From: Magnetovibrio sp.
GTDB taxonomy: Bacteria > Pseudomonadota > Alphaproteobacteria > Rhodospirillales > Casp-alpha2
DNA length: 49,418 bases
NCBI GenBank assembly: GCA_002709525.1
Contig: PARE01000060.1
Location: 1-49,418, forward strand
Reading direction: 5' to 3'
Every line of letters starts with the position of its first letter. The stretch's first letter is position 1. Of the stretch, positions 4,633 to 39,002 are shown in pieces. Made by a program: the position numbers and the translations under genes. The notes beneath the pieces are model-generated. The model was not told the origin of the DNA. It did not search any database and saw nothing but the letters and a program-made list of their open reading frames with translations.

Positions 4633-5349
4633 TTAGGCCCCTGGCTTAGGGCCTGTGGCGTCCAGTAGTTTCTTTACCACCTTGTTCTTTAGGTCGATCC
4701 CAACCCCGCACTTACAGCCGGGACACGTGGTACAGAGGTCCAGGCCCAAATCCCACGCCTGCGCGAGCGCCTCGTCCTTTTCCGCCTGCGAACTCAGAGG
4801 ATCAAGTCGTACCATTTGTAACTTCAACAATGAGAACGGATTGCCCCAAAGATAGCCTTTGCTTGCCGACACAGCGGCGGCAACTTCGCCGTCATCTGGC
4901 GCCAAGTTCTTGGCGTGCATTGGACAATTATGGAGACACGCGTAGCATTCCACGCAGGCCGTCAGTGCGTGGTAGTCCTCCGGAGCTTCGACATTCAAAT
5001 CGTTACCCGCCGCTTGTACCGGCATGCGGCCACGCATCTGTCGGGCGATCCCGTCACGCTTCACCACCAAGTCAGCCAGAACTGGCAGGGTCGCCATCGG
5101 GCTGATACGATCACCATTACGGATTCGTGCCCGACAGGCCAGCCGAGGAAGACCGTTGATGTCGACAGTGCAGACCCCGCAATTCCTGGCCCGGCAACCA
5201 TATCGGAACGCCAGATCTGCATGCCCGTTCAGCTGAGCCTGCAATAGAACATCTAGGACCATTGGTTTCTCATCATCGAACCGGCGCTGGTAGTAATACT
5301 CGACAACCGCCGTTTCTCCGTCGCGATGGGTAACAATCTCGACTTTCAC
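4633..5349 (-). CDS. iron-sulfur subunit, SdhB/FrdB-like
   Basis: A 238-residue protein with an N-terminal plant-type ferredoxin domain (YGCRARNCGVC plus a later LAC, a [2Fe-2S] centre) and a C-terminal helical domain with CVECYACLHNCP, a normal [4Fe-4S] motif. The third cluster region reads LCTTCPGCKCGVGID. The canonical C-x5-C-x3-CP of SdhB/FrdB is changed to C-x5-C-x-C with no proline, so the [3Fe-4S] site may be altered. It overlaps the start of the flavoprotein partner by four bases (ATGA arrangement), which indicates translational coupling. No membrane-anchor gene (SdhC/D type) is adjacent, so the complex may be soluble or use an anchor elsewhere. The electron acceptor or donor is unknown. 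Confidence 0.87.
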   Translation of the reverse strand: MKVEIVTHRDGETAVVEYYYQRRFDDEKPMVLDVLLQAQLNGHADLAFRYGCRARNCGVCTVDINGLPRLACRARIRNGDRISPMATLPVLADLVVKRDGIARQMRGRMPVQAAGNDLNVEAPEDYHALTACVECYACLHNCPMHAKNLAPDDGEVAAAVSASKGYLWGNPFSLLKLQMVRLDPLSSQAEKDEALAQAWDLGLDLCTTCPGCKCGVGIDLKNKVVKKLLDATGPKPGA

Positions 5350-7292
5350 CTTTGAGCCGCTTCAGCCGGGGCGCCAGCTATACTTCCAGGCTCTATCTCC
5401 GATGGACCATTGGTAGTGTTCATTACCGCCTCATAATGTTTGCGGATACGCCGGTCGCTGATCGGTGCCGGCAAACGGCGCAGCACTCTGAGCTTCACCT
5501 TCCGCCAGAAATCGGTTGCTAGGTAGGCTCCCAACCGGCCAAAGGGAAGCCCCTCGCGACCGATACGCCTGGCCATGAATATACCATCTTCGTCACGTCG
5601 GATTACCGTCGAATAGGGCTTCCCAAAGATCGAGATTTGGGGCCCGTCAGAACGTACGTGGCCACCGACGCTGCCATCACGTTCCCGCGCTGCCACTGCA
5701 ATGGCGCGGCCGCAGACCAGCATATTAGAGAGCTCAATGTATTCGATGAAAGCCTGGTTCCAAGAGCTGTAGGCTGGAATAGCGACGCTCGATAGCTCCT
5801 TCTCAATCTGCGCGCAAACCGCCTCGAACTGATCCAGTCTTTGGGCGGACCGGACCGGACCAATGTTCGTCCAAGCCGCTTCTTGGAGTTTCACTTTCAA
5901 TACTGCCGCAGACTGGTTTCCATTTTGGCCAAAGAGACCCGCCGCCGCCGCCAGCGACGGCTGGAAAGCAGCGTCGTCGACTTTGATCTTCTCGGCCAAG
6001 GCATGGGCGGCTGCACTGTGGCCGCTGCGGATGCCGAAGATAGCGCACTCAGCTAATGCGGTTGAGCCCAACCGGTTCGCCCCAAAGAATCCCCCCATTG
6101 CCTGACCGGCAGCATATAGACCTGCTATGGTATCTATGCTCTCATCAGAAAAAGCTCCTCCATCAGGATCAGCGCGGAGTCCACCCATCATGTAATGTGC
6201 GGCGGGTCGTACTTCCCATGGTTCCTTCAGCTGCCCTGCCGCCTTGCTCATGGCCTGCCGGACATTCCTATAGGCCGACGGCATGACCTGTTGCAGATAG
6301 CGCTTGAAGTGATCGCCCGACAGCGGCGCCCGGGCGTTTTTGGTCAGATCTAAATAGGCCCCACCGTTGACGGTGCCGCGCCCATCTTCCACAGCCAACA
6401 TAATCGCGGCCGCACATTCCGCCCGAGTGCGGAGCATGACGCAGTCTAAAATAACTTTCCCGTTTTTATCTACAAGATCGCCCATGAAACTAGCGACCGA
6501 CGGCTCCCCGCAAAGTAGCCCCTCATACGACGGGGGAGACGTCAGGCAAAATGGCAAGAACTGTAATTGTTCCATGTCAATGAGATCAGCGCCGGCGCGA
6601 GCCATTATCGCATAGGCGTCGCCGGTGTTACCGCGCATGGTGTCGGTCTTTGGGAAAAAAAGCGTGCTGAGGCCGCCCGCCGCGATGACCACCGCCGGCG
6701 CACGTACAACCACTAGCTTGCCACCCGACGCATCATAGACAATCCCGCCAATGACCCGCTTGCCGCTCACGCCTATCTCTTCGGTGATTACGACATCGAG
6801 TAACCAAGCGTCCTCCATGTAGTCGACCCGGGGGGTTTGTATCACCGCAGTCCAGGTCGCATGGCCGAGCGCAAGGCCGGAGTTGGCGTGCCCGATAGTC
6901 CGGCGCTTGGTGTGTCCACCCATGGCGATAGAGACGGGCCGGGGCCCCCCACGTTTAACGTCCACCTTCGGACGCGCACCGCGTTGACGATACCAATCAT
7001 AGGCCGTCCGATTATCTCTCGCAAAAGCCTGCGTGATAGCCTTGTCGGGGATACTTCCCCCACCCATACGAAGGTTATCTGAGAGGACCTGTTCCGAGTC
7101 ACTGTCTTCCCCCGTCGCGCGCACGGTCACCTTGCCCTCAGAAATCTTAGTATCAGAACATCCAATGGGGTCCTTGGAAACGACTAGCACCCGTGCGCCG
7201 CGTTCGGACGCCGCCTGCGCCGCGGCACTCCCCGCGCCGCCGGAGCCAACAACAATTACATCGTAATCCCGCCATGCCGTTTCGATAGACAT
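5346..7292 (-). CDS. FAD-dependent oxidoreductase, SdhA/FrdA-like, substrate unknown
   Basis: A 648-residue flavoprotein with AGGAG about seven bases before the ATG. The FAD Rossmann loop is GSGGAG (residues 16-21). Where SdhA/FrdA has the covalent-FAD His (S-H-T), this protein has CSDTKISEG, with Asp47 in its place, so FAD is likely non-covalent. The substrate-site His of QFHPTG is replaced by Leu (MEQLQFLPFC), and the catalytic Arg of the RGEGG segment is not found before LVDKNG. HYMMGG and GANRLG, the other His and Arg of the family, are kept. The C-terminal GGHVRSDGP matches the family. It works with the Fe-S protein encoded next to it, but is probably not a succinate dehydrogenase or fumarate reductase. 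It is divergent from upp. Confidence 0.88.
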   Translation of the reverse strand: MSIETAWRDYDVIVVGSGGAGSAAAQAASERGARVLVVSKDPIGCSDTKISEGKVTVRATGEDSDSEQVLSDNLRMGGGSIPDKAITQAFARDNRTAYDWYRQRGARPKVDVKRGGPRPVSIAMGGHTKRRTIGHANSGLALGHATWTAVIQTPRVDYMEDAWLLDVVITEEIGVSGKRVIGGIVYDASGGKLVVVRAPAVVIAAGGLSTLFFPKTDTMRGNTGDAYAIMARAGADLIDMEQLQFLPFCLTSPPSYEGLLCGEPSVASFMGDLVDKNGKVILDCVMLRTRAECAAAIMLAVEDGRGTVNGGAYLDLTKNARAPLSGDHFKRYLQQVMPSAYRNVRQAMSKAAGQLKEPWEVRPAAHYMMGGLRADPDGGAFSDESIDTIAGLYAAGQAMGGFFGANRLGSTALAECAIFGIRSGHSAAAHALAEKIKVDDAAFQPSLAAAAGLFGQNGNQSAAVLKVKLQEAAWTNIGPVRSAQRLDQFEAVCAQIEKELSSVAIPAYSSWNQAFIEYIELSNMLVCGRAIAVAARERDGSVGGHVRSDGPQISIFGKPYSTVIRRDEDGIFMARRIGREGLPFGRLGAYLATDFWRKVKLRVLRRLPAPISDRRIRKHYEAVMNTTNGPSEIEPGSIAGAPAEAAQR

Positions 7293-8269: not shown

Positions 8270-8489
8270 TGGCTAATTTTTATACAAACAGATATGCAAT
8301 GTTTATTTTTTAATCAGTGCAATTTTACGCTTTCTGGTAAGTGTCTGAAACTTCACGCTTTCAATGTGGCATATTGTTTGCTCACTAGAATTTTGTCTAC
8401 TCGGTAATTGAAATTGAAATGTTTCTCAATATCACGAGGCGGTTTTTTGTAGATGATAGCGCTGGCTTCAAACTCGAGGATTTTACCGT

Positions 8490-9596
8490 ATGGTTGAGCA
8501 AGCGCGCAGGCTAGGCAAGATCGAGCTTATTTCATTGTCAAAATACTTCGGCGAAAGCGCGGCCGTCGATGAGATTTCCCTATCCATACCCGCCGCTTCA
8601 TATTGTTGTCTACTGGGTCCGTCCGGGTGCGGAAAAACAACGACTCTGCGCTTGATAGCTGGGCACGAAACGGCTAGCAACGGCAGCGTCCTGATTAGCA
8701 ACCGCGAAGTGACCGACGCGCCGCCAGCAAGTCGAGGCACAGCGATGATGTTTCAAAACTATGCACTTTTTCCTCATCTTAACTGTCTTGAAAACGTCGC
8801 TTTCAGTTTGCGCATGCAGGGCATCAACAAAGAAGAGCGAAATTCTCGGGCCACGGAATTGTTGTCGCTGGTGCACATGGAGTCCTTCAGTGGACGCATG
8901 CCGTCGCAATTGTCAGGTGGCCAACAACAGCGGATTGCCCTAGCGCGCGCTTTGATCACAAAACCCGACGTGCTGCTTCTGGACGAGCCATTGTCTGCTC
9001 TTGATCCCTTTCTGAGAACCCGGATGCGCGCGGAGCTGCGCCAGTTGCAAAAAAAATTGGGCATAACTTTTGTTCACGTAACCCATTCTCAGGACGAGGC
9101 TATGGCCTTGGCCGACTTAGTCGTGGTCATGCAAAGTGGCCGCATCGAGCAAGCGGACCACCCACGCGAGGTTTTCAATGCTCCGGCCAACAGTTTCGTC
9201 GCCAAATTCATTGGCGGGCATAATGTCTTGTCCGGCGTAGTGCGTAAATCTAGTGGCTCTAGTGTACTTGTCGAAGGACCGGACGATTTCCGCTTCGATT
9301 TGAGCTCACAGCAACCAGACGTGGGCACAAAATTGAGCTACGCAATCCGAACCGATGCGATAAAGCTCTCACCCCCGAACACTAAGCAGGCCGAATTTGG
9401 GTTTGTCCGCGCTGTAATCAAAGAGACCGAATACGCAGGGTCAGACGTTCGCGTAACCCTGCAGACCACAGACGGTCAAGAATTTGTCGCCATTTGCAAG
9501 GAAGCTGATTTCTACACAAACGTTTGGGGCGTAGGAGACAGCGTCAACGCTTCGTGGAAACGAGAGAATATCCATGCCTTGGGGCCGGAAGACTAA
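8490..9596 (+). CDS. ABC transporter ATP-binding protein, PotA-like
   Basis: A 368-residue ATPase, first gene of a five-gene run. GAGGA lies ten bases upstream of the ATG. Walker A GPSGCGKTT, Q-loop in MMFQNYALFPHLN, signature LSGGQQQRIALARAL, Walker B VLLLDEPLSALD and the switch His in VTHSQDEAMAL are all intact. The last 130 or so residues form the TOBE-type regulatory domain of the spermidine/putrescine/2-aminoethylphosphonate/iron branch. It powers the importer made with the next three genes at the inner membrane. The substrate is probably a polyamine or other small cationic or amide-rich compound, but sequence does not fix it. Confidence 0.92.
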   Translation: MVEQARRLGKIELISLSKYFGESAAVDEISLSIPAASYCCLLGPSGCGKTTTLRLIAGHETASNGSVLISNREVTDAPPASRGTAMMFQNYALFPHLNCLENVAFSLRMQGINKEERNSRATELLSLVHMESFSGRMPSQLSGGQQQRIALARALITKPDVLLLDEPLSALDPFLRTRMRAELRQLQKKLGITFVHVTHSQDEAMALADLVVVMQSGRIEQADHPREVFNAPANSFVAKFIGGHNVLSGVVRKSSGSSVLVEGPDDFRFDLSSQQPDVGTKLSYAIRTDAIKLSPPNTKQAEFGFVRAVIKETEYAGSDVRVTLQTTDGQEFVAICKEADFYTNVWGVGDSVNASWKRENIHALGPED

Positions 9597-9637
9597 CTCC
9601 TGACAACTAATTCAACCAAGAGAGGAAAGGAAAACAG

Positions 9638-10942
9638 ATGACTAAAGAAACTAAGAAGACGGGAATGAAGGGCCACCTTGGGCGCAGAACATTCTTGAAA
9701 GGCGTGGCCGCCACTGGTGGCTTGGCCGCCGGTTCTGGAATGATGACAGGGTTCCCCACGATTTGGGCCCAGAACATCAAGAATGTTACCCTTCGTCAGT
9801 TCGGCACTGGCGTGTCGAACATCAACGAAATTGCCAAGAAGGTGAAGGAAGACTTAGGCTTCACTCTCGAAATGACTGCCCTTGATACAGACACCACAGC
9901 ACAGCGCGTCGTTACCCAGCCAAAATCTTTTGATATCGCCGACATCGAATACTTCACCGTAAAGAAAGTTTGGGGAGCTGGTAACCTGCAGCCCTTCGAC
10001 GTTAGCAAGTTGAAGAATTACGATAAGATTGTCGGGATTTTTAAAAACGGCAAGCTGACCCCGACCTCTAAAATCGCTCAGGGCACCGCACCACACACTG
10101 TAGGTTTTGCTGACTCTCAAGACGCCAAGACCTTCGCCTCTTCGGAGACCAACTGGTACACTCTCGTGCCGACGATCTACAACGCTGACACCTTGGGAAT
10201 CCGGCCTGACCTAATCAAACGGCCGATCAATTCATGGGCCGAACTGCTAAACCCTGAATTCAAGGGCAAGGCTTCGATTCTCAATATTCCCTCGATTGGT
10301 ATCATGGATGCAGCCATGGTATGTGAGGCGATGGGCGAGATCACCTATGGCGACAAAGGCAATATGACCAAGGCGGAAATTGACAAAACCATGGCAATCT
10401 TCACGGATGCGAAGAAATCGGGCCAATTCCGAGCCTTCTGGAAGACCTTCGACGAGTCGGTCAACCTTATGGCTTCCGGCGAAGTAGTGATTCAGTCCAT
10501 GTGGTCGCCGGTCATTACCAAAGTTCGGTCGATGAATATCCCATGTATCTACCAGCCGCTGAAGGAGGGCTATCGCTCTTGGGGCGGCGGACTAGGCATG
10601 TCGCGCAACCTGTCTGGAATCACCTTGGATGCCGCTTACGAATACATTAATTGGTACCTCTCCGGTTGGGTCGGCGGTCTACTTATGCGCCAAGGCTATT
10701 ATTCCGCAGCGCCGGAAACTTCAAAGTTACACATGAGCAGCGACGAATGGGGCTTTTGGTTTGAGGGCAAACCAGCGAAGTCCGACATCATCGACCCCTT
10801 CGGCAACAAACTCGAAAAGGCCGGCGCCACGCGCGATGGAGGCTCCTTCTATGACCGTATGGGCCGGGTCGAATGCTGGAACTCCGTGATGTCCGAAAAC
10901 CGATACATGGTCCGGAAATGGAATGAATTCATCGCAGCCTAA
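9638..10942 (+). CDS. extracellular solute-binding protein, spermidine/putrescine type
   Basis: A 434-residue periplasmic protein with a Tat-type leader: GRRTFLKGVAATGG (Arg16-Arg17) followed by a hydrophobic stretch, with cleavage expected near IWAQ. The body matches the PotD/PotF-like cluster D fold in tone (for example YNADTLGIRPD, SWAELLNPEFKGKASILN, and GLGMSRNLSGITLDAAYEYI near the end). A strong RBS (GAGGAAAGGA) lies before ATG 9638. It captures the substrate for the permeases that follow. A Tat leader on a binding protein suggests export after folding, which is common in this subfamily of Alphaproteobacteria. Ligand-contact residues cannot be assigned by eye. Confidence 0.9.
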   Translation: MTKETKKTGMKGHLGRRTFLKGVAATGGLAAGSGMMTGFPTIWAQNIKNVTLRQFGTGVSNINEIAKKVKEDLGFTLEMTALDTDTTAQRVVTQPKSFDIADIEYFTVKKVWGAGNLQPFDVSKLKNYDKIVGIFKNGKLTPTSKIAQGTAPHTVGFADSQDAKTFASSETNWYTLVPTIYNADTLGIRPDLIKRPINSWAELLNPEFKGKASILNIPSIGIMDAAMVCEAMGEITYGDKGNMTKAEIDKTMAIFTDAKKSGQFRAFWKTFDESVNLMASGEVVIQSMWSPVITKVRSMNIPCIYQPLKEGYRSWGGGLGMSRNLSGITLDAAYEYINWYLSGWVGGLLMRQGYYSAAPETSKLHMSSDEWGFWFEGKPAKSDIIDPFGNKLEKAGATRDGGSFYDRMGRVECWNSVMSENRYMVRKWNEFIAA

Positions 10943-10973
10943 GTATTGACGACGAAAACCATACTAAGAGATT

Positions 10974-11873
10974 ATGGCCCCGGAAGAAATTCCGGGGCCG
11001 TTTCTCTTGGGGCTCAATTTTTCTGGAGACGTATTTTTGAAGACGCAACTGCAAATTCTGCCTTTGATCGCAATACTCGCGCTTTTCCTAATTGGCCCAA
11101 TATTAATTATTTTCGTCGTTAGTTTCTGGGACTATACGGAATTTAGTCTAGTACCGGACTTTGTGCTGACCAATTATATCGAGCTATTCGAATCATCGGT
11201 CACCTATTCCATTTATCTGAACACCCTAAAATTTGCGGCTCTGAGTTGGATTTTTACCCTCGTGATTGGTTTTGGCGTGGCTTATTTCCTGGCCTTTCAT
11301 GTTCGCCAATTGCGCTGGCAAGTGATCTTGTTCTTGGTGTGCACCATCCCTTTCTGGACATCGAACATTATTCGCATGATTGCCTGGATACCAGTGCTTG
11401 GGCGCCATGGATTGATCAACAAGGGACTAGTCAATATAGGCATAGTCGATCAACCAGTGGAATGGCTGTTATACTCCGATTTTGCCGTAATCTTAGCTTT
11501 CGTTCATCTTTACACCTTGTTCATGGTGGTGCCGATCTTCAATTCCATGATGCGAATCGACAAGTCAGTGTTGGAGGCCGCACGTGACGCCGGGGCAAGC
11601 GCGTTTCAAGTCTTGACCCACGTCATTATCCCCCTTTGCCGTCCCGGTATCGCCATTGGTACGATCTTCGTCGTCAGTTTAGTGATGGGTGATTTTGTCA
11701 CTGTCCAAGCTATGTCTGGAGGACAAAGTGCTTCCGTCGGGGTCGCCATGAACCATAAACGTGCCCTCCTGCAATATCCGGCCGCCGCAGCCGACGCCAT
11801 GATCTTGCTCATCGTCGTTCTAGCCATGGTCGCAATGCTAATGCGAACCGTGAACATTCGAAAGGAATTGTAA
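10974..11873 (+). CDS. ABC transporter permease, PotB-like
   Basis: A 299-residue membrane protein with about six hydrophobic helices and the cytoplasmic EAA loop EAARDAGASAFQVLTHVIIP, which couples to the ATPase. The start is uncertain. ATG 10974 has only a weak AAGAG upstream. An in-frame TTG at 11037 has GGAGA about nine bases upstream and would begin directly with KTQLQILPLIAI before the first helix. It sits 31 bases after the binding-protein gene and 3 bases before the second permease, so all are one operon. Confidence 0.9.
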   Translation: MAPEEIPGPFLLGLNFSGDVFLKTQLQILPLIAILALFLIGPILIIFVVSFWDYTEFSLVPDFVLTNYIELFESSVTYSIYLNTLKFAALSWIFTLVIGFGVAYFLAFHVRQLRWQVILFLVCTIPFWTSNIIRMIAWIPVLGRHGLINKGLVNIGIVDQPVEWLLYSDFAVILAFVHLYTLFMVVPIFNSMMRIDKSVLEAARDAGASAFQVLTHVIIPLCRPGIAIGTIFVVSLVMGDFVTVQAMSGGQSASVGVAMNHKRALLQYPAAAADAMILLIVVLAMVAMLMRTVNIRKEL

Positions 11874-11876
11874 ATT

Positions 11877-12713
11877 TTGGCCCGCACCCGCTCATATTAC
11901 CTCATGGCCGTTTTTTTCTCGCTGTTCGTGCTCTTCCTTTATGGACCGATGGTCGCTATCATGGTGTTGTCCTTCCAGGGTCCAGACGGCGGCTTGACCT
12001 TCCCCATGAACGGCTTTTCTTTCCACTGGTTCGGCGATCTCTTCAAAGAACAGCGGGTCGGAGATTTCAAGGGATCGTTCCTTCGCTCCATAGTTTTGGC
12101 ATTAATAGTCATGATTTTGACGGTGACAATTTCCCTGGCGGCTGGTCTAGCCTACCGGAAGAGTTTTAGGTTCTCTGGCACAGTCTTTTATGTCACCGTG
12201 GCTAGCCTGATCGTTCCTTCAATTTTAATCACGTTAGGCATCGGTCTAATGTTTGATAGATTAGGGCTGGAGGCGCAATTGTATACTTCTGGAATGGGTG
12301 CGCACTTAACTTGGACGCTTCCGTTTGGACTGTTGATCATGTTCGCCATCTTCAATCGCTTCGATAAGTCATACGAGGAGGCAGCCCGCGACCTAGGAGC
12401 TACGCCTTGGCAGGTGCTTCGGCACGTGATCATTCCAATCATCGGTCCAAGTCTTGTGGGTGTCGGCTTGTTTGGCTTTACGTTAAGCTTCGATGAATTT
12501 GCGCGATCGCTGCTTTCCATCGGCTCAAAGAATACCCTGCCATTAGAAATTTTCGGTATGACAACGACAGTAACGACGCCGACCTTGTACGCGTTGGGCA
12601 CCTTGACCACCGCGGTTTCTTTCCTGATCATTGGCATCAGTTTCTCCGCTATCGCCATGATAGAGAGGCGTCGCCGCCAGCATGGGACCGACGCTGGCCA
12701 AGGCATGGTTTAG
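11877..12713 (+). CDS. ABC transporter permease, PotC-like
   Basis: A 278-residue second permease of the polyamine-type importer, with about six hydrophobic helices and the EAA loop EEAARDLGATPWQVLRHVII. The start codon is TTG, with AAAGGA inside the end of the upstream permease gene nine or so bases before it, so translation is probably coupled. The C-terminal tail is basic (ERRRRQHG). The stop is followed four bases later by the GTG start of the racemase, which ties that enzyme to the transporter. Confidence 0.9.
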   Translation: MARTRSYYLMAVFFSLFVLFLYGPMVAIMVLSFQGPDGGLTFPMNGFSFHWFGDLFKEQRVGDFKGSFLRSIVLALIVMILTVTISLAAGLAYRKSFRFSGTVFYVTVASLIVPSILITLGIGLMFDRLGLEAQLYTSGMGAHLTWTLPFGLLIMFAIFNRFDKSYEEAARDLGATPWQVLRHVIIPIIGPSLVGVGLFGFTLSFDEFARSLLSIGSKNTLPLEIFGMTTTVTTPTLYALGTLTTAVSFLIIGISFSAIAMIERRRRQHGTDAGQGMV

Positions 12714-12717
12714 GCCC

Positions 12718-13458
12718 GTGAATATCATTTTGATCAACCCCAATACAACTGAGGCCATGACCGCACGCATGCACGCCGCTGTGGCTCCCATGATAGGCGA
12801 GGGAGTTAAGCTAACTGCAATCACCGCAGACTATGGCGCACCCAGTATCGAGGGATATTATGACGAAGTTTTCGCTGTCCCACCGATGATTGAAGCCTTA
12901 AAGCCCATTGCCAACCAAATAGATGGTGTGGTCGTGGGCTGTTTTGACGACACGGGTGTAGATGCCCTGCGCTGCCTTCTCGATGTTCCGGTGGTCGGGA
13001 TCTGTCAGGCAGCAATGCAGGCCGCGACCGTCATCGCAAATAAATTTTCTATTATTACAACCCTTCCTGTCTCCGTACCAGCGCTGGAGCACTTGGTCCT
13101 GCGCTATGGTTTTGAGCGTCTCTGCGGACGGGTTCGGGCCGCCGATATTCCTGTTCTAGACCTTGAAGAGAACTTGGAGCAGGCGACTCAGTCGATTGTC
13201 GCAGAATTAGAGCGGGCACTTGTGGAAGACGGGGCCGAAGCGATCATTCTGGGGTGCGCTGGCATGGTTGAACTCAGCCGGAGCCTAACAGAGCGTTACG
13301 GAGTTCCGGTGATCGAGGGCGTTGGCGCGGCTGTGAAGCTTGTGGAGGGTCTTGCCACACTTGGCCTTTCCACCTCGACGCAGGGAGGGTATGCCCCGCC
13401 GCGTAAAAAGATGTACTCGGGCATACTAGCCCCGTATTCACCAAGCGTTAAGTCCTAA
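12718..13458 (+). CDS. Asp/Glu/hydantoin racemase family protein
   Basis: A 246-residue protein from GTG 12718, chosen because MNIILINPNTTEAMT is the exact family N-terminus; an ATG at 12682 would add 12 residues overlapping the permease gene. Two catalytic Cys segments are visible: VVVGCFDDTGVDALR and AIILGCAGMVELS. The GCFDDxG form is typical of hydantoin and allantoin racemases rather than glutamate racemase (MurI). It probably interconverts enantiomers of a cyclic ureide or 5-substituted hydantoin, possibly the substrate imported by the ABC system encoded just upstream. The pairing is inferred from gene order only. No hydantoinase or carbamoylase is in the window. Confidence 0.88.
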   Translation: MNIILINPNTTEAMTARMHAAVAPMIGEGVKLTAITADYGAPSIEGYYDEVFAVPPMIEALKPIANQIDGVVVGCFDDTGVDALRCLLDVPVVGICQAAMQAATVIANKFSIITTLPVSVPALEHLVLRYGFERLCGRVRAADIPVLDLEENLEQATQSIVAELERALVEDGAEAIILGCAGMVELSRSLTERYGVPVIEGVGAAVKLVEGLATLGLSTSTQGGYAPPRKKMYSGILAPYSPSVKS

Positions 13459-33208: not shown

Positions 33209-33309
33209 CGATCTCTCTCCGTCTTTTCGTTCGCTGGTCGGCACTCTATGTTAGCGATCGTATTTGAGCAACGGGGTTGACCCCTTGGAAAAGCTTAAGG
33301 GAAGCCTGC

Positions 33310-34467
33310 ATGAAACCTATCAATTCCGTCCTGTCCAGTTACGGCGTCACAGTATTTGAGACTATGTCCCGCCTCGCCATGGATATGGGCGCCATTAACC
33401 TTGGGCAGGGTTTTCCCGATGACAACGGGCCGGAGAACCTAAGAGTCAAAGCCGCTGAGGCAGTCATCGAAGGGCCAAACCAATATCCACCTATGCTCGG
33501 CATCCCAGAATTGCGCCAGGCGGTAGCGGCACATAACAAGCGCTTTTACGGCCTGGACGTCGATTGGGAAACGGAGACCATGGTTACCTGCGGTGCTACA
33601 GAAAGCCTCACCGATTGCATCCTGGCGCTGATCGAGCCTGGCGATGAGGTGGTGCTCATCGAGCCCCTTTATGATAGCTACCTTCCCATGGTGCGTAGGG
33701 CCGGAGGGGTCCCTAAGCTGGTCCGCGTGGAGCCACCACATTGGGAACTACCGCGCGCCGCCCTGGCCGACGCCTTTTCCAATAGGACCAAGATGATCTT
33801 GCTTAATACACCCCAAAACCCCGCAGCCAAGGTCTATGGCCACGACGAACTCAAGTTTATTGCCGACCTTGTGATAAAACACGATGCCTATGCCGTTTGC
33901 GACGAGGTCTATGAACATATCGTCTTCGATGGAGCGCAACACATTCCATTGATGACGTTGCCCGACATGCGCGATCGCTGCGTACGCATCGGCTCGGCAG
34001 GTAAGACTTTCTCCATGACAGCCTGGAAAGTTGGCTACGTGACCGCCCCGGCGAACCTCTTAAGCGCCATCGCCAAAGCACATCAGTTCGTCACCTTCAC
34101 CACGCCAACAAACCTGCAGCGCGCTGTGGCAATGGGCCTGGAACAAGAAGACAGCTATTTCGCCAGTCTCCGCGCCACGCAGGAAGCGAAGCGCGACCGC
34201 ATCCGCGACGCCTTAGAGGACGCGGGATTTAAAACACTGCATACGGCAGGCACCTATTTTCTATCTGTCGATATCCGATCGGTAGGGTTTGAGGATGGCG
34301 ACGAAGCATTTTGCGAACATATAATCCGCGAGGCCGGTGTTGCCGCCATACCCTTGAGCGCCTTTTATCAAGAAAACGGCCAACCCGACTTTGTCCGCTT
34401 CTGTTTCTGCAAGCAAGACAGCGTTCTAGACGAGGCCGCGGCACGCCTAAAAAACCATTTTTCCTGA
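33310..34467 (+). CDS. PLP-dependent aminotransferase class I/II (YbdL / kynurenine aminotransferase-like)
   Basis: A 385-residue protein from ATG 33310 with AAGGGA a few bases upstream. FETMSRLAMDMGAINLGQGF and the following PDDNGPENLR are characteristic of the methionine/kynurenine aminotransferase branch (YbdL, KAT). VTCGATESLTDCILAL, NTPQNPAAKVY and IGSAGKTFSMTAWKVGYV (Lys in GKTF) give the PLP site; the C-terminal PDFVRFCFCKQD holds the substrate-binding Arg. It probably transaminates a hydrophobic or sulfur amino acid with a 2-oxo acid. The ThDP enzyme gene begins 23 bases after its stop, so they form an operon. Confidence 0.92.
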   Translation: MKPINSVLSSYGVTVFETMSRLAMDMGAINLGQGFPDDNGPENLRVKAAEAVIEGPNQYPPMLGIPELRQAVAAHNKRFYGLDVDWETETMVTCGATESLTDCILALIEPGDEVVLIEPLYDSYLPMVRRAGGVPKLVRVEPPHWELPRAALADAFSNRTKMILLNTPQNPAAKVYGHDELKFIADLVIKHDAYAVCDEVYEHIVFDGAQHIPLMTLPDMRDRCVRIGSAGKTFSMTAWKVGYVTAPANLLSAIAKAHQFVTFTTPTNLQRAVAMGLEQEDSYFASLRATQEAKRDRIRDALEDAGFKTLHTAGTYFLSVDIRSVGFEDGDEAFCEHIIREAGVAAIPLSAFYQENGQPDFVRFCFCKQDSVLDEAAARLKNHFS

Positions 34468-34490
34468 GCCAACAGAAGAGGAGTAACCCC

Positions 34491-36035
34491 ATGAACGGCG
34501 CCGAAAGCCTAGTCCGCACCTTGAAGCTAGGTGGGATCGATGTCTGTTTCACCAACCCCGGCACATCCGAAATGCATTTTATGGCCGCCCTCGACCGCAC
34601 AAACGCACTTCGTTGCGTCCTCGGCCTACAGGAAAACGTCGTCACTGGCATGGCCGACGGCTACGCGCGGATGGCCAATAAACCCGCTGCAACCTTGCTG
34701 CACCTTGGCCCAGGGTTAGCAAATGGCCTGTCCAACCTGCATAACGCCTCAAAGGCAGGTACAGGGATTGTCAACATCGTTGGAGACCACGCAACCTATC
34801 ACCTAGAGTACAACGCACCCCTAACCTCCGATATCGAAGGTATCGCCCGGCCCGTATCGGACTGGATCCGAACCTCGCCGGTCGCTGAAGGCATTGCCGA
34901 AGATGGGGCGGAAGCTATTCGTCAGGCGAGTATGCATCCGGGCCACATCGCGACACTAATCTTGCCCGGGGATACGGCTTGGAACAAAGGCGCTGAACCG
35001 GTTCCCACGGCAAAGCCCAACGCCCCAGCTGCGCCCAGCATGAATAAAATTGAAAAAGCGGTGAAGACGCTCTCCAGCGGCAAGCGCACGGGCATTTTCC
35101 TAAAGGGCCCAACACTCCGCGAACCGGGCCTGACCCTAGCCGGCAAAATCGCGGCAAAGACCGGCGCGCGCCTATACGCCCCCACGTCCAACGCCCGCAT
35201 AGATCGCGGTGCGGGACGGGTCGCCGTGGAACGGGTTCCCTATGTGGTCGAATTGGCGGTAGAGCGTTTATCTGATCTGGAACATATGATTGGCATTGGC
35301 GACGCAGAACCAGTGGCCTTCTTCGCCTATCCCAACAAACCAAGCCGCATTCTGCCTGACAACTGCACCGTCCAGCACCTCGCTACAGAAGAGGAAGACG
35401 GCACGAGGGCATTGGAGATGTTAGTCGACGCGCTGGACGCTCATAACGAAACTCCGTCCGTTGCCGACCGGCGCGAGCCGGAACTACCGACAGGGGAGCT
35501 GACCCAAGACACAATCGCTGCCACCGTTTCCGCACTTTTGCCAGAGAACGCTATCGTCGTGGACGAGAGCATCTCATCAGGTCGTCAGCTCAATTGGCAG
35601 ACCTCGGGAGCCCTGCCTCATAGTTGGCTCAGCATTTGCGGCGGCGCAATTGGCATCGGGCTGCCCCTTGCCGCTGGGGCTGGCATTGCCAGTCCGGACC
35701 GAAAGATCGTCGGCCTGCAGGCGGATGGTTCAGCTATGTACACTGTGCAGGCATTGTGGACCATGGCGCGTGAAAACATCGATGCAACCATCGTAATCTA
35801 CGCCAACCGGGCTTATCGCATCCTGCAGGGAGAGATGACCGCTATGGGCGTGAAGGAACCAGGCCGAGTCGCCAAGGACATGTTCGGCTTGGATCGCCCA
35901 AATTTGGATTGGGTTTCAATCGCTGCAGGCATGGGAGTCGGAGGAGAGAGGGTAAAAGAAACTGAGAGCTTCATCGATGCCTTCCAGCGCGGCCTAGCCT
36001 CCGACGGGCCCTATGTGGTGGAAGCGGTGATTTAG
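34491..36035 (+). CDS. acetolactate synthase large subunit-like ThDP enzyme
   Basis: A 514-residue protein from ATG 34491, with AAGAGGAG eight bases upstream; the frame is open far upstream inside the aminotransferase gene but that is not coding. FTNPGTSEMHFMAAL and LGLQENVVTGMADGYARM hold the ThDP-activating Glu. The C-terminal cofactor motif is QADGSAMYTVQALWTM ... IYANRAY (ADGS in place of the usual GDGS, then the Asn). It belongs to the benzoylformate-decarboxylase/ALS-like group and lacks an adjacent small subunit, so it is more likely a 2-oxo-acid decarboxylase or related lyase than true IlvB. It could act on the 2-oxo acid formed by the preceding aminotransferase; that is inference. 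Confidence 0.88.
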   Translation: MNGAESLVRTLKLGGIDVCFTNPGTSEMHFMAALDRTNALRCVLGLQENVVTGMADGYARMANKPAATLLHLGPGLANGLSNLHNASKAGTGIVNIVGDHATYHLEYNAPLTSDIEGIARPVSDWIRTSPVAEGIAEDGAEAIRQASMHPGHIATLILPGDTAWNKGAEPVPTAKPNAPAAPSMNKIEKAVKTLSSGKRTGIFLKGPTLREPGLTLAGKIAAKTGARLYAPTSNARIDRGAGRVAVERVPYVVELAVERLSDLEHMIGIGDAEPVAFFAYPNKPSRILPDNCTVQHLATEEEDGTRALEMLVDALDAHNETPSVADRREPELPTGELTQDTIAATVSALLPENAIVVDESISSGRQLNWQTSGALPHSWLSICGGAIGIGLPLAAGAGIASPDRKIVGLQADGSAMYTVQALWTMARENIDATIVIYANRAYRILQGEMTAMGVKEPGRVAKDMFGLDRPNLDWVSIAAGMGVGGERVKETESFIDAFQRGLASDGPYVVEAVI

Positions 36036-36091
36036 CCACTGACCCCTCGGCGCGCTGGGGAGCTCCCCGGCCACACAATTAGGCTTGAGGC
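36036..36091. repeat. GC-rich palindrome between convergent genes
   Basis: GGGGAGCTCCCC (36057-36068) is a perfect 12-base palindrome between the stops of the ThDP gene and the small membrane ORF. There is no T-run on either side, so a terminator role is only possible. Confidence 0.3.
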
Positions 36092-36208
36092 CTAGACGAA
36101 GATTTCAAGGACACCAATAACAAGAAGTACAAGCGCCAGAGCAATTGCGGCACCATAGACCATGATGTTGCAGACGGCCCTGATGGTGAAAGGTTCATTC
36201 AAATTCAT
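36092..36208 (-). CDS. 38-residue single-helix membrane peptide
   Basis: This was found by reading the complement. ATG 36206-36208 opens 38 codons ending in TAG. The product starts MNLNEPFTIRAVCNIMVYGA and continues as one strongly hydrophobic helix (residues 15-37). AAGAG lies six to seven bases upstream of the ATG. The design, a short polar head plus one membrane span, resembles small accessory subunits or regulators of membrane complexes. I recognise no family. It is convergent with the ThDP enzyme gene. Confidence 0.5.
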   Translation of the reverse strand: MNLNEPFTIRAVCNIMVYGAAIALALVLLVIGVLEIFV

Positions 36209-36263
36209 GTGATGCTCTTTTCGTATCAATGCATGTGAAAAATTTTGTCAGGCCCTAACTCTA

Positions 36264-36452
36264 TCAAGACACGACACAAGGATCATAACCGCTGATTTTT
36301 GCAGACGCTAGAGTCAACCTTAGTGAAGATACATTTGTTTCCCAAGCAGCGAAGAACACGTCGCGCATGTGGCGACGCATGTCTGCGTCAACCTCGGGAG
36401 CGAGAACAGTCACCAGAAATCGAACTGCCCTTTCAATCTCGTATGGGTCCAT
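36264..36452 (-). CDS. possible small protein (62 residues)
   Basis: The first 38 residues (MDPYEIERAVRFLVTVLAPE onward) have the look of a real helical protein, with charged and hydrophobic residues well spaced. The rest (NVSSLRLTLASAKISG) is less convincing. GAGG lies about 15 bases upstream of the ATG, which is rather far. It is on the same strand as the 38-residue membrane ORF, 55 bases before it, so the two could form a small operon. No family is recognised. Confidence 0.3.
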   Translation of the reverse strand: MDPYEIERAVRFLVTVLAPEVDADMRRHMRDVFFAAWETNVSSLRLTLASAKISGYDPCVVS

Positions 36453-36722
36453 CGGGCAGTTTATCCTCTAAACGCGCATAATCTACTTCGCTCCTAAACC
36501 TGAAACCGCTGACTGCGGCTAGCCACAGTTCTTCGCGGTTGGGTTCACATTTCAATTCGTGAAAAACACGAGTCTCACGGTCTCGGTTTGCATTAATTTT
36601 TACACCCCCGGAATTGCTATAATTTTTTGTAACTCTGGGGATTCGGTCGTCACTTCGTTACCCGACTAAAAAATTCTCAATCGCGCTTGCAAAATGTCCT
36701 GTAACATCACCCTAATACACTC
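36453..36722. promoter_or_regulatory. intergenic region with extended -10 box (36615-36623)
   Basis: TGCTATAAT (36615-36623, plus strand) is an extended -10 element about 100 bases before the pyrimidine 5'-nucleotidase start. A well-placed -35 is not obvious, which fits an extended -10 promoter. Nothing else is recognised here. Confidence 0.4.
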
Positions 36723-37424
36723 ATGGAAGAGAAACCTGATGCCCCCCTGACAAGGGACGGTAAGCGACCGATGCGGGAAGCGGAAACCTGGGTATTCGAC
36801 CTAGACAACACCCTTTATCCAGCGACATGTCGCCTGTTCGACCAGGTGGATAAAAACATCACCCGATACATCATGCAGTTCCTAGGCCTGGAATGGGACG
36901 AAGCCTATGGCCTTCAGAAAGGCTATTTCCGTCAATATGGGACCACCATGAACGGCTTGATGACCTTACACGATGCAAACCCGCATGAATTTATGGAATT
37001 CGTACACGACATTGACCTCTCACCCGTCGACCCAAACCCACGCATGGACGCGGCGCTGGCGAAACTGCCGGGTCGCAAGATCATCTTTACCAACGGTTCA
37101 ATGGCTCATGCTAAAGGCGTCATGGGTGCACTGGGCGTGGGCCACCATTTTGAAGCCATTTTCGATATCGTCGCGTCGGATTTCCGCCCCAAACCAGAAC
37201 GCGCCGTCTATGATAAGTTTGTCTCAAATCACAATATTGACCCAAATCAGGCTGTAATGGTCGAAGACATGGCGCGCAACCTCGCCCCAGCTCATGAGAT
37301 GGGCATGACCTGCGTTTGGGTAACGTCGGACAACGATTGGGCCAAGGCCGGCCACGATGGCGATCACGTGCATTACGTCGTCAGTGATGTGACCCAATGG
37401 CTGGAGATCGTTTCCGACCCATGA
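36723..37424 (+). CDS. pyrimidine 5'-nucleotidase (HAD family, Sdt1/YjjG-like)
   Basis: A 233-residue HAD hydrolase. Motif I WVFDLDNTLYP holds the nucleophile Asp26 and Asp28. IIFTNGSMAHAK is motif II, FRPKPERAVYDK carries the motif III Lys, and AVMVEDMARNLAPA is motif IV. The FDLDNTLYP form with the cap EFMEFVHDIDLSP is typical of bacterial and yeast pyrimidine 5'-nucleotidases, which dephosphorylate UMP/CMP or odd pyrimidine nucleotides. The start is a little uncertain: ATG 36771 (17th codon) has GGTAAG upstream and would also keep the domain. It stands alone on the plus strand. Confidence 0.9.
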   Translation: MEEKPDAPLTRDGKRPMREAETWVFDLDNTLYPATCRLFDQVDKNITRYIMQFLGLEWDEAYGLQKGYFRQYGTTMNGLMTLHDANPHEFMEFVHDIDLSPVDPNPRMDAALAKLPGRKIIFTNGSMAHAKGVMGALGVGHHFEAIFDIVASDFRPKPERAVYDKFVSNHNIDPNQAVMVEDMARNLAPAHEMGMTCVWVTSDNDWAKAGHDGDHVHYVVSDVTQWLEIVSDP

Positions 37425-37847
37425 TATTATCCAATCTTATGGCCTCGGCACGCCTTTAGCAGGAGGAGGGCACGCCAACCCGTCAGGCCAGTGCATGTAT
37501 TGTCTAAACCGGGATAGGATTGATGGCATTGAGCAGTCAGTCGATGTCTTGGCGTTTGGTTATGACACGATCCAAACTGCAGCCCCATAGGTTTTCGCTG
37601 TGTGCCAGAATGATGTCCACCGAAACCACGATAATGTGAATTTCCGCTCCTGGTCCCGCCAGCTGACAAATGGCGCGGGGAAAGCTGTGCTATCGGCGCT
37701 TCTGAAGGGGATCAGCCCGATGATAAAACGGCATTGTTCCGACTCGGACCGGCGGAGATAATGGCGGCGGCCATCGTTGCGGCGAATTTGCAAATTGATG
37801 AATTCGCAAGCTGATTTGTCCACTTTGAGCCAGTGAGGAGAAAGCAT
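37425..37847. other. 423-base intergenic region upstream of the alcohol dehydrogenase
   Basis: No gene is recognised. A minus-strand frame reaching about 100 codons lacks family character and RBS. The right end carries an unusual repeat pair (37784-37809), and a strong RBS leads into the dehydrogenase. A decayed gene in the middle is possible but unproven. Confidence 0.4.
37784..37809. repeat. 16-base-spaced direct repeats with internal palindromes, possible operator
   Basis: GAATTTGCAA (37784-37793) and GAATTCGCAA (37800-37809) are direct repeats 16 bases apart. AATTTGCAAATT (37785-37796) is a perfect palindrome, and GCGAATT/AATTCGC (37782-37788, 37801-37807) form arms around it. The site ends 38 bases before the dehydrogenase ATG, a usual place for a regulator. 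Confidence 0.45.
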
Positions 37848-39002
37848 ATGGCAACTTTCACTTTTCAAACCACGCGCTCGGTAGTCGTCGAGCCGGGTAG
37901 CTCACGAAAATTGGGCTCATTAATGGCAAGCCTGGGTTGCACCAACGTGCTGCTTGTTACTGACAGCGGGATCATGGACCTGGGTCTAGCGGAACCGGCC
38001 ATTGGCGGTTTCTCCAATGCCGGCGTAAATCTCTCTGTCTTCGCCGACGTCGTCGCTGATCCGCCGGAAGAGATCATTCTAAGAGCGGTATCGGACGCCA
38101 ATGCGAAAAATATTGACGGTGTCGTTGGCCTTGGTGGCGGCAGTTCCATGGACGTGGCCAAGTTGCTGGCCTTTTTGCTGGGAAGCGACCAAACGCTATC
38201 CGATATCTATGGAATCGACATGTGCCAAGGCGAACGCCTGCCACTAGCCTTGGCACCAACGACGGCGGGCACGGGTTCGGAGGTAACGCCAATCTCCATC
38301 GTAACCACAGGCGCAAGTGAAAAGAAGGGCGTTGTATCGCCACAGCTTCTTCCCGATTGGTCTGTGCTAGACGCAGATTTAACCCTCGGCCTGCCCACGC
38401 ACATCACAGCGGCAACCGGCATCGACGCCATGGTTCACGCTATTGAAGCCTATACCTCGAAGGTTAAAAAAAATCCCATGTCTGATTGTTTGGCAAAGGA
38501 GGCTCTTCACTTGCTTGGCGCAAATATCCGCAAAGTCTGTGAGGACAGTAATGCCCGGCAGGCGCGCAGCGACATGCTCCTGGGTTCCATGCTAGCGGGC
38601 ATGGCCTTCTCAAATGCGCCCGTGGCAGCCGTACACGCGTTAGCTTATCCCCTCGGTGGACACTTCCATGTGCCCCACGGACTTTCGAATTCCTTGGTGC
38701 TACCCCACGTTATGCGGTTCAACATTCCGGCAGCAAAGGACGCCTACGCGGAATTGGCATCCATTTTGTTCCCCGATATCGACCGAGGCTCGACGGAGAC
38801 AGTAGCCTTAAATTTGGCCCACCGACTGGCCCGGCTGGCCGAAGAATTGGGCTTAGAGACCAGGCTTCGCGAAGTGGGTGTATCAGAAAATCAGATCCCC
38901 ATGCTGGCAGATGACGCCATGAAACAAGCGCGGCTCTTGGTCAACAATCCACGCGAAATGACCTACGAGGCGGCGCTCGAGATCTATCAACAAGCTCACT
39001 GA
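37848..39002 (+). CDS. iron-containing alcohol dehydrogenase
   Basis: A 384-residue NAD-linked enzyme from ATG 37848, with GAGGAG seven bases upstream. The cofactor-binding N-terminal domain has VVGLGGGSSMDVAKLLAF (GGGS loop) and PTTAGTGSEVTPISI. The metal site is spread over TGIDAMVHAIEAYTS (Asp, His) and VHALAYPLGGHFHVPHGLSN (His, His). It oxidises a primary alcohol or reduces an aldehyde in the cytosol. S-formylglutathione hydrolase is encoded 39 bases downstream on the same strand, which suggests a role in methanol, formaldehyde or related C1/aldehyde metabolism. Class III zinc ADH, the usual partner of FghA, is absent here. Confidence 0.92.
   Translation: MATFTFQTTRSVVVEPGSSRKLGSLMASLGCTNVLLVTDSGIMDLGLAEPAIGGFSNAGVNLSVFADVVADPPEEIILRAVSDANAKNIDGVVGLGGGSSMDVAKLLAFLLGSDQTLSDIYGIDMCQGERLPLALAPTTAGTGSEVTPISIVTTGASEKKGVVSPQLLPDWSVLDADLTLGLPTHITAATGIDAMVHAIEAYTSKVKKNPMSDCLAKEALHLLGANIRKVCEDSNARQARSDMLLGSMLAGMAFSNAPVAAVHALAYPLGGHFHVPHGLSNSLVLPHVMRFNIPAAKDAYAELASILFPDIDRGSTETVALNLAHRLARLAEELGLETRLREVGVSENQIPMLADDAMKQARLLVNNPREMTYEAALEIYQQAH

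Follow-up and report, generated by a model that had tools for sequence, protein, structure and literature searches.

Which reaction is carried out by a gene pair that resembles succinate dehydrogenase and seems to lack some of the residues by which that enzyme holds succinate? The question is raised by a 49,418-nucleotide stretch of Magnetovibrio sp. DNA (contig PARE01000060.1 of assembly GCA_002709525.1; the whole stretch is hereafter called the window), in which two overlapping open reading frames encode a flavin adenine dinucleotide (FAD) subunit and an iron-sulfur (Fe-S) subunit of the complex II type. Annotation by likeness would make the pair a succinate dehydrogenase/fumarate reductase (SDH/FRD) and would misstate the metabolism of these bacteria. 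We propose, at a probability of roughly 0.47, that it is an anchorless two-subunit relative of complex II for a carboxylate other than succinate, working probably in the oxidative direction. The two genes are as follows:

5346-7292, minus strand: FAD subunit, SdhA/FrdA-like, 648 amino acids, ATG start (open reading frame and Pfam; Rossmann motif right at the N-terminus)
4633-5349, minus strand: Fe-S subunit, SdhB/FrdB-like, 238 amino acids, GTG start (open reading frame and Pfam)

The reading frames share a 4-nucleotide overlap. The FAD subunit was matched by Pfam FAD_binding_2 (7e-47; domain from residue 11) and Succ_DH_flav_C, and the Fe-S subunit by Fer2_3. In NCBIfam, the FAD subunit stayed under every cut-off among the best 25 of 55 models (top score 234 bits against a cut-off of 819; sdhA_frdA_Gneg, 198 against 567), and the Fe-S subunit did so in all 13 models, TfrB being the top one with 101 bits against 385 and dhsB a near miss with 84.2 bits against 88.

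The answer proposed here starts from the active site of the FAD subunit. Alignment covered 27 of the 29 known copies (G808 and G809 not included), taking in, for the active-site positions, the incomplete copies L035 and L144; two separate alignments gave the same mapping, with FrdA numbering as the reference:

7152-7154, minus strand: Asp47 at the covalent-FAD His44 of FrdA; Asp in 27/27
6555-6557, minus strand: Leu246 at FrdA His232, a second-carboxylate ligand; Leu in 27/27
6504-6509, minus strand: Gly262-Glu263 at FrdA Thr244-Glu245; Gly in 26 and Ser in 1, Glu in 27/27
6495-6497, minus strand: Val266 at FrdA Arg248, the RGEGG Arg and proton relay; Val, Thr or Met, never Arg, in 27/27
6423-6425, minus strand: Arg290 at the FrdA catalytic acid Arg287; Arg in 27/27 and in 8 references
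6195-6197, minus strand: His366 at FrdA His355, substrate binding; His in 27/27
6072-6074, minus strand: Arg407 at FrdA Arg390, carboxylate binding; Arg in 27/27

In FrdA, His232, His355 and Arg390 bind the substrate, Arg287 passes the proton and Thr244 aids the transition state (PMC10238741). By alignment, one carboxylate site and the acid/base residue survive in the window protein, which has lost the ligands of the second carboxylate and the His for covalent flavin attachment. An earlier, sequence-only reading of this DNA had placed Asp47 at the covalent-FAD His and Leu at the substrate His of QFHPTG, and had regarded HYxMGG and GANRLG as retained; all of this was recovered in the alignments, the motif around Asp47 being SDTKISEG in the window protein and SDSKIAEG in copy L143. 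The same reading held that the catalytic Arg of RGEGG is missing, which is half right: that Arg is lost in every copy, but the catalytic Arg is kept, because the RGEGG Arg is a proton relay and the proton donor Arg287 of FrdA aligns with Arg290. The relay Arg corresponds to Arg381 of Fcc3, in which Arg402 is the proton donor and Glu378 and Arg381 make up the path leading to it (PMC7921117, PMC6242907). Its loss is not trivial, since in yeast Osm1 the Ala variants of all six conserved residues, the relay Arg included, were much less active (PMC6242907). In complex II, furthermore, succinate oxidation depends on a flavin potential that the covalent FAD link sets about 100 mV higher (PMC10238741), so that loss of the link argues against this reaction.

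Residues invariant in the family only include Lys49, Arg220, Cys249, Arg288 (two residues ahead of the catalytic Arg290) and Cys293, and as candidates these could line the second site. The position of FrdA Phe116 is Met124 in the window protein and Met, Lys, Phe or Leu across the family. Among the 24 non-family sequences of the second tree described below, equivalents of Arg287, His355, Arg390 and Arg248 were present in all, and His232 in 23. The exception, L002, is a divergent SdhA-like paralogue on contig C3 of the host genome, carrying Phe in place of His232 and Trp in place of Thr244; it lies below all NCBIfam cut-offs among the models shown and is a second unusual member of the fold.

The residue pattern goes beyond chance, because all 27 aligned copies share these substitutions and the ratio of nonsynonymous to synonymous divergence (dN/dS) is low: compared with the nearest relative (90% identity), the FAD gene gave 0.052/0.518 and the Fe-S gene 0.073/0.725, both close to 0.10. 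Both genes are under purifying selection, and 175 positions of the FAD subunit are invariant in the 25 full copies (the partial L035 and L144 left out). The missing residues are missing in the aligned orthologues as well, and the fixed pattern provides a natural test of the residues that set substrate choice in the complex II superfamily. By the substrate-site and cofactor-link features tested, the protein is not a member of the SDH/FRD family. The earlier view that it is probably not a succinate or fumarate enzyme thus gains support from the replacement, in all 27 aligned copies, of His232, Thr244 and the His that would link FAD covalently, from the separate long-stemmed clade described next and from the NCBIfam scores.

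The order-level search comprised the host genome and its relatives, 61 genomes in total. In the same family, 12 of 37 genomes carried 13 copies at 57-100% identity; in the other families of the order none of 24 genomes had a copy, the remaining matches listed being at 34% identity or less. In a class-level sample 7 of 385 genomes matched (E up to 1e-100), the host among them and the other six in two families labelled f90 and f150, which have a copy in 7 of 11 and in 8 of 9 genomes, respectively. The host genome alone matched at 1e-80 in the phylum-level sample (n = 398). A pattern-based scan of species genomes returned, among its best 80 matches at 79 loci, four close loci at 57-90% identity followed by others at 26-32%; three of the four were protein-identical to copies already counted, and the taxa, where given, were Alphaproteobacteria, Rhodospirillaceae and Magnetovibrio. 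Six records from a plasmid collection reached only about 28-31% identity. Within the samples searched, the family was found only in Alphaproteobacteria.

A phylogeny with SdhA, FrdA and NadB (L-aspartate oxidase) set the family apart: it formed a single clade with 100/100 support in two trees (75 and 36 rows), its stem measuring about 3 changes per site, and lay outside the sampled SdhA/FrdA, NadB, Sdh1-like and TfrA-like groups. The first tree was calculated without L003 (five or more X), and X letters were stripped from the rows of the second, which adds Nocardia and Gemmatirosa sequences of the Sdh1 type. The root is a midpoint root only, and a program warning flags that the long branch of L002 meets that of the family. 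Within the complex II superfamily the family is a genuine and conserved subgroup; among the openly licensed PMC papers listed by literature searches, none deals with this group.

The AlphaFold model of the FAD subunit (pLDDT 79.6, pTM 0.86; pLDDT below 50 at residues 109-118, 264-268, 404-406 and 628-648) has the overall SDH/FRD flavoprotein fold, in line with the sequence-only assignment of this gene to the SdhA/FrdA-like flavoproteins. Its best fold match was FrdA 1kf6_A (Z 49.1, root-mean-square deviation 3.0, 543 residues aligned, 27% identity), with 5vpn_A tied on Z. The top Foldseek matches were Mycobacterium smegmatis Sdh1 (7d6v/7d6x), which was also the best sequence match in the PDB (2.2e-51). 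An actinobacterial comparator, Nocardia L171, is unlike the family in having all canonical residues and in falling outside the family clade; it was taken as Sdh1-like by likeness and is not so named in its record. With Escherichia coli FrdAB (quinol:fumarate reductase) and SdhAB the window pair shares the fold, the FAD and Fe-S core and the equivalents of Arg287, His355, Arg390 and Glu245. It differs from them, at 25-27% identity, in lacking the covalent His, His232, Thr244 and Arg248, in having an extra Cys at centre 3 and a C-terminal extension, and in showing no membrane subunits beside the pair. The extension is located as follows:

5409-5543, minus strand: C-terminal extension, residues 584-628, with Lys/Arg-rich helices 584-606 and 609-628 (AlphaFold model)

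Residues past about 583-591 lie outside the coverage of most fold matches. All 6 members tested had the peak of a charge-plus-moment score in the extension. The peak does not count as evidence for membrane binding, because an internal stretch at residue 101 of the window protein scores equally; docking to the membrane through these helices was rejected, the score being mostly net charge and the mean hydrophobicity negative. Hydropathy averaged over 19 residues is highest inside the FAD domain (1.88, at 193-211).

The sequence-only reading had given the flavoprotein an Fe-S partner and no membrane anchor, and this description is supported. Of 26 assessable copies, 25 have the Fe-S gene adjoining the FAD gene; L144 stops within the FAD gene, and the exception is L118, one of two G011 copies. 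No anchor-like gene joined to the pair was seen in the window, nor was a membrane anchor gene found among the neighbours scanned, some neighbours being unscanned and no search having been made for distant genes. As an observation on its own, the L118 copy (8305-10272), which has no Fe-S gene, lies near an Sbt_1 bicarbonate-transporter gene.

Two Cys motifs are present in the Fe-S subunit, C132/C135/C138/C142 and the following:

4708-4734, minus strand: second Cys motif of the Fe-S subunit, C206xxC209xxC212xC214, in which C209 has no counterpart in FrdB/SdhB (alignments)

In FrdB, C148/C151/C154/C214 hold a [4Fe-4S] cluster and C204/C210/C158 a [3Fe-4S] cluster (PMC1459171). Cys209, seen in 13 copies of one alignment and 6 family rows of another, takes the place of the Val in FrdB CTFVGYC, giving CxxCxxC where FrdB has CxxVxxC, and the spacing after CxxCxxC is two residues shorter than in FrdB. 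A Cys at this Val position of FrdB converts the cluster. The complete motif predicts a [4Fe-4S] cluster at centre 3 in place of [3Fe-4S]. A structural model of the Fe-S subunit, built from 5 sequences only, was unusable (pLDDT 42.9). The thiol:fumarate reductase TfrAB of methanogens ranked second among the NCBIfam matches of the FAD subunit (220 bits) and first among those of the Fe-S subunit; the pair misses the cut-offs of 718 and 385, and the Fe-S match spans positions 13-214 of the 488-position TfrB model, without its second half.

The direction of the reaction and the nature of the substrate are hinted at by the gene neighbourhood in family f150. Five of its eight copies (L143 and L159-L162, from two genera) share one operon, in which a fused tripartite ATP-independent periplasmic (TRAP) permease gene directly precedes the pair and a ComD-like gene (sulfo/phosphonopyruvate-decarboxylase-like) follows it in all five. 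Genes for a TAXI binding protein and a ComE-like protein occur in four of the five (the L159 contig ends), and a VOC protein gene in four; aldolase and gamma-glutamyltranspeptidase (GGT)-like genes in three (the L159 and L160 contigs end); a PhyH dioxygenase in three (L160-L162, and absent at that place in L143 and L159); and EamA in three (L159, L161, L162). From the operon one might expect that an organic acid is imported and a 2-oxo acid formed, a suggestion that comes from related genera; the operon also supplies concrete candidates for pathway partners. The ComD- and ComE-like proteins both scored 128 bits, below their cut-offs (148 and 221.5, respectively), and their best solved relative was 9iz3, the phosphonopyruvate decarboxylase RhiEF (PMC12141560); a sulfopyruvate or phosphonopyruvate pathway is only one possibility. 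A ureide or oxamate pathway, considered on account of the GGT-like gene, was rejected, the best solved matches of that gene being ordinary gamma-glutamyltranspeptidases. In family f90, a thiamine-diphosphate (TPP) enzyme, a flavin mononucleotide (FMN) reductase and EamA are encoded near the pair in four genomes of one genus, and in genome G812 a TRAP/TAXI pair lies beside it. Separately, it may be recorded that an EamA gene also lies beside L117, and that the locus L161 (3679-15964) has aldolase, GGT-like, TAXI/TRAP importer, PhyH, EamA, ComD/ComE-like decarboxylase and VOC genes around the pair.

Taken with the kept residues Arg290, His366 and Arg407, from which fumarate-reductase-type hydride and proton chemistry on a carboxylate is expected, this gives the following mechanism. 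FAD would be bound without a covalent link, and Arg407 and His366 would hold one carboxylate of the substrate. Arg290 would serve as the acid/base while hydride is exchanged with flavin N5 in the manner of fumarate reductase; by analogy with urocanate reductase (compared below) the enzyme should perform hydride and proton chemistry across Calpha-Cbeta with one bound carboxylate and a different group in the second site. The second half of the pocket (Leu246 and Gly262, probably with the residues next to them) may take a group other than the second carboxylate of succinate or fumarate, and electrons would run along [2Fe-2S], [4Fe-4S] and [4Fe-4S] to an acceptor. More tentatively, the f150 operon points to oxidation of an imported acid such as a 2-hydroxy- or 3-substituted propionate; the 2-oxo product of this oxidation might pass to a thiamine-diphosphate decarboxylase. 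Carried to its full extent, the proposal would be of an undescribed class of the superfamily: an anchorless alphaproteobacterial dehydrogenase with FAD, [2Fe-2S], [4Fe-4S] and [4Fe-4S], oxidising a TRAP-imported carboxylate whose other end is a non-carboxylate group, such as a sulfonate, a phosphonate or a hydrophobic group, to an enol or 2-oxo acid for the thiamine-dependent decarboxylase, with basic helices that possibly dock elsewhere. In this specific form we regard it as doubtful.

Several points weigh against the oxidative, non-succinate proposal. The missing covalent link should lower the flavin potential and disfavours oxidation of a succinate-like CH2-CH2 bond. The analogy with the urocanate reductase UrdA, compared below, is incomplete: UrdA has both Arg residues (relay and acid) but no longer the Glu (PMC7921117), and in the window enzyme the Glu is present and the relay Arg absent. 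The structural model is poor at 264-268 and 404-406, so a substitute second-site residue could restore a dicarboxylate site. The TRAP/ComD operon is confined to two f150 genera: locus L142 has a short-chain dehydrogenase/reductase gene and a branched-chain-type ATP-binding cassette (ABC) system and none of the operon genes, L158 has a different TPP enzyme with PhyH upstream, and L144 is cut. Moreover, the neighbours are not conserved in the family of the window itself, and the host genome encodes ComE-like proteins at four places, all of them on other contigs.

The alternative that survives best runs in the opposite direction: a 2-enoate reductase, comparable to urocanate or acrylate reductase, that would receive low-potential electrons via the Fe-S subunit and reduce an unsaturated monocarboxylate. 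We consider it possible, if on the unlikely side. As the covalent link is needed for succinate oxidation (PMC10238741), absence of the covalent His favours reduction; the full CxxCxxC at centre 3 would suggest a lower-potential wire, and the residue logic resembles that of UrdA. In the latter the carboxylate contacts Arg560, His520 and Arg411 are retained and Tyr373 stands in for the second-site His; its Y373H variant gains low fumarate activity. The two enzymes are alike in keeping the carboxylate contacts and the acid Arg and in replacing the second-site His (PMC7921117). They differ in that UrdA is periplasmic with an N-terminal FMN domain and the window enzyme is a two-subunit protein with Succ_DH_flav_C; Leu246 rather than Tyr stands at the second site, and no FMN domain was found among the Pfam matches of the FAD subunit. 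On the other side, the genes shared around the pair in the five f150 genomes have a catabolic look, with an importer, a decarboxylase and in some cases a dioxygenase and an aldolase, and NadB likewise lacks the covalent His yet oxidises its substrate.

The likeness to NadB, which works without an Fe-S subunit, extends to the kept catalytic Arg, His and Arg. Unlike the family, NadB retains His244, Thr259 and Arg263, has a Glu (Glu121) at the FrdA Phe116 position and forms a separate clade (support 100/99 and 100/100). Amino acid oxidation of the NadB kind was rejected, the position of NadB Glu121, a residue with a role in that reaction, being Met, Lys, Phe or Leu in the family.

It is improbable that the pair still acts on succinate, fumarate or another C4-dicarboxylate through residues standing in for His232, Thr244 and Arg248 (for example Arg288 as the relay). 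Such stand-ins could be sought among the family-invariant Arg220, Arg288 and Lys49, and the fold and catalytic triad are those of FrdA. However, both second-carboxylate residues are absent from all 27 copies while nearly all non-family sequences keep His232 (23/24), no NCBIfam cut-off was reached among the best 25 of 55 models, and genome G020 has a copy in addition to a canonical SdhA (L128, which passes its cut-off).

A non-carboxylate substrate, as in the adenosine 5'-phosphosulfate (APS) and 3'-phosphoadenosine 5'-phosphosulfate (PAPS) reductases of the same fold, has a very slight chance. The fold matches do include PAPS reductase 8a8o_A (Z 43.6) and the APS reductases 2fja_A and 1jnr_A (Z 36.9 and 36.7), but at just 16-17% identity and with FrdA nearer, and Arg407 and His366 are unchanged in 27/27. 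AprB is a ferredoxin-like protein, but the Fe-S partner here resembles SdhB, and the AprA family was not among the best 25 of 55 NCBIfam models for the FAD subunit. A decayed or inactive paralogue, which the several missing SDH active-site residues might bring to mind, is scarcely credible: it was rejected on the dN/dS of about 0.10, and the 175 invariant positions, the kept catalytic acid and the two-gene arrangement in 25 of 26 assessable copies also speak against it.

In the window itself, the divergent neighbours of the pair are a uracil phosphoribosyltransferase, a polyamine-type ABC transporter and a racemase. Deriving a function from them was rejected, as they recur only beside the 90%-identical relative L114 and not at the other loci compared; the 13.4-kb contig of L114 has the phosphoribosyltransferase, ABC and solute-binding protein genes, and the place of the racemase is off the contig. 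The polyamine-type ABC genes, followed by the racemase, occupy 8490-13458 of the window, and the closest solved relatives of the racemase are a putative hydantoin racemase and allantoin racemase. Further along, at 33277-39002, genes for an aminotransferase, a thiamine-diphosphate enzyme (N and C domains matched, with no middle-domain match) and an iron-containing alcohol dehydrogenase stand close together and may form a small pathway. Elsewhere in the host genome, one ComE-like match sits among amidohydrolase, aldehyde dehydrogenase and TctA/TctC genes. The locus L168 (contig C2, 14001-33999) is a catabolic-looking cluster with TctA/TctC, a ComD/ComE-like pair and an aldehyde dehydrogenase, and also holds TauD, EamA, amidohydrolase and GGT genes. 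Finally, L005 on contig C44 is a clear tricarballylate dehydrogenase TcuA, with 577 bits against a cut-off of 369.

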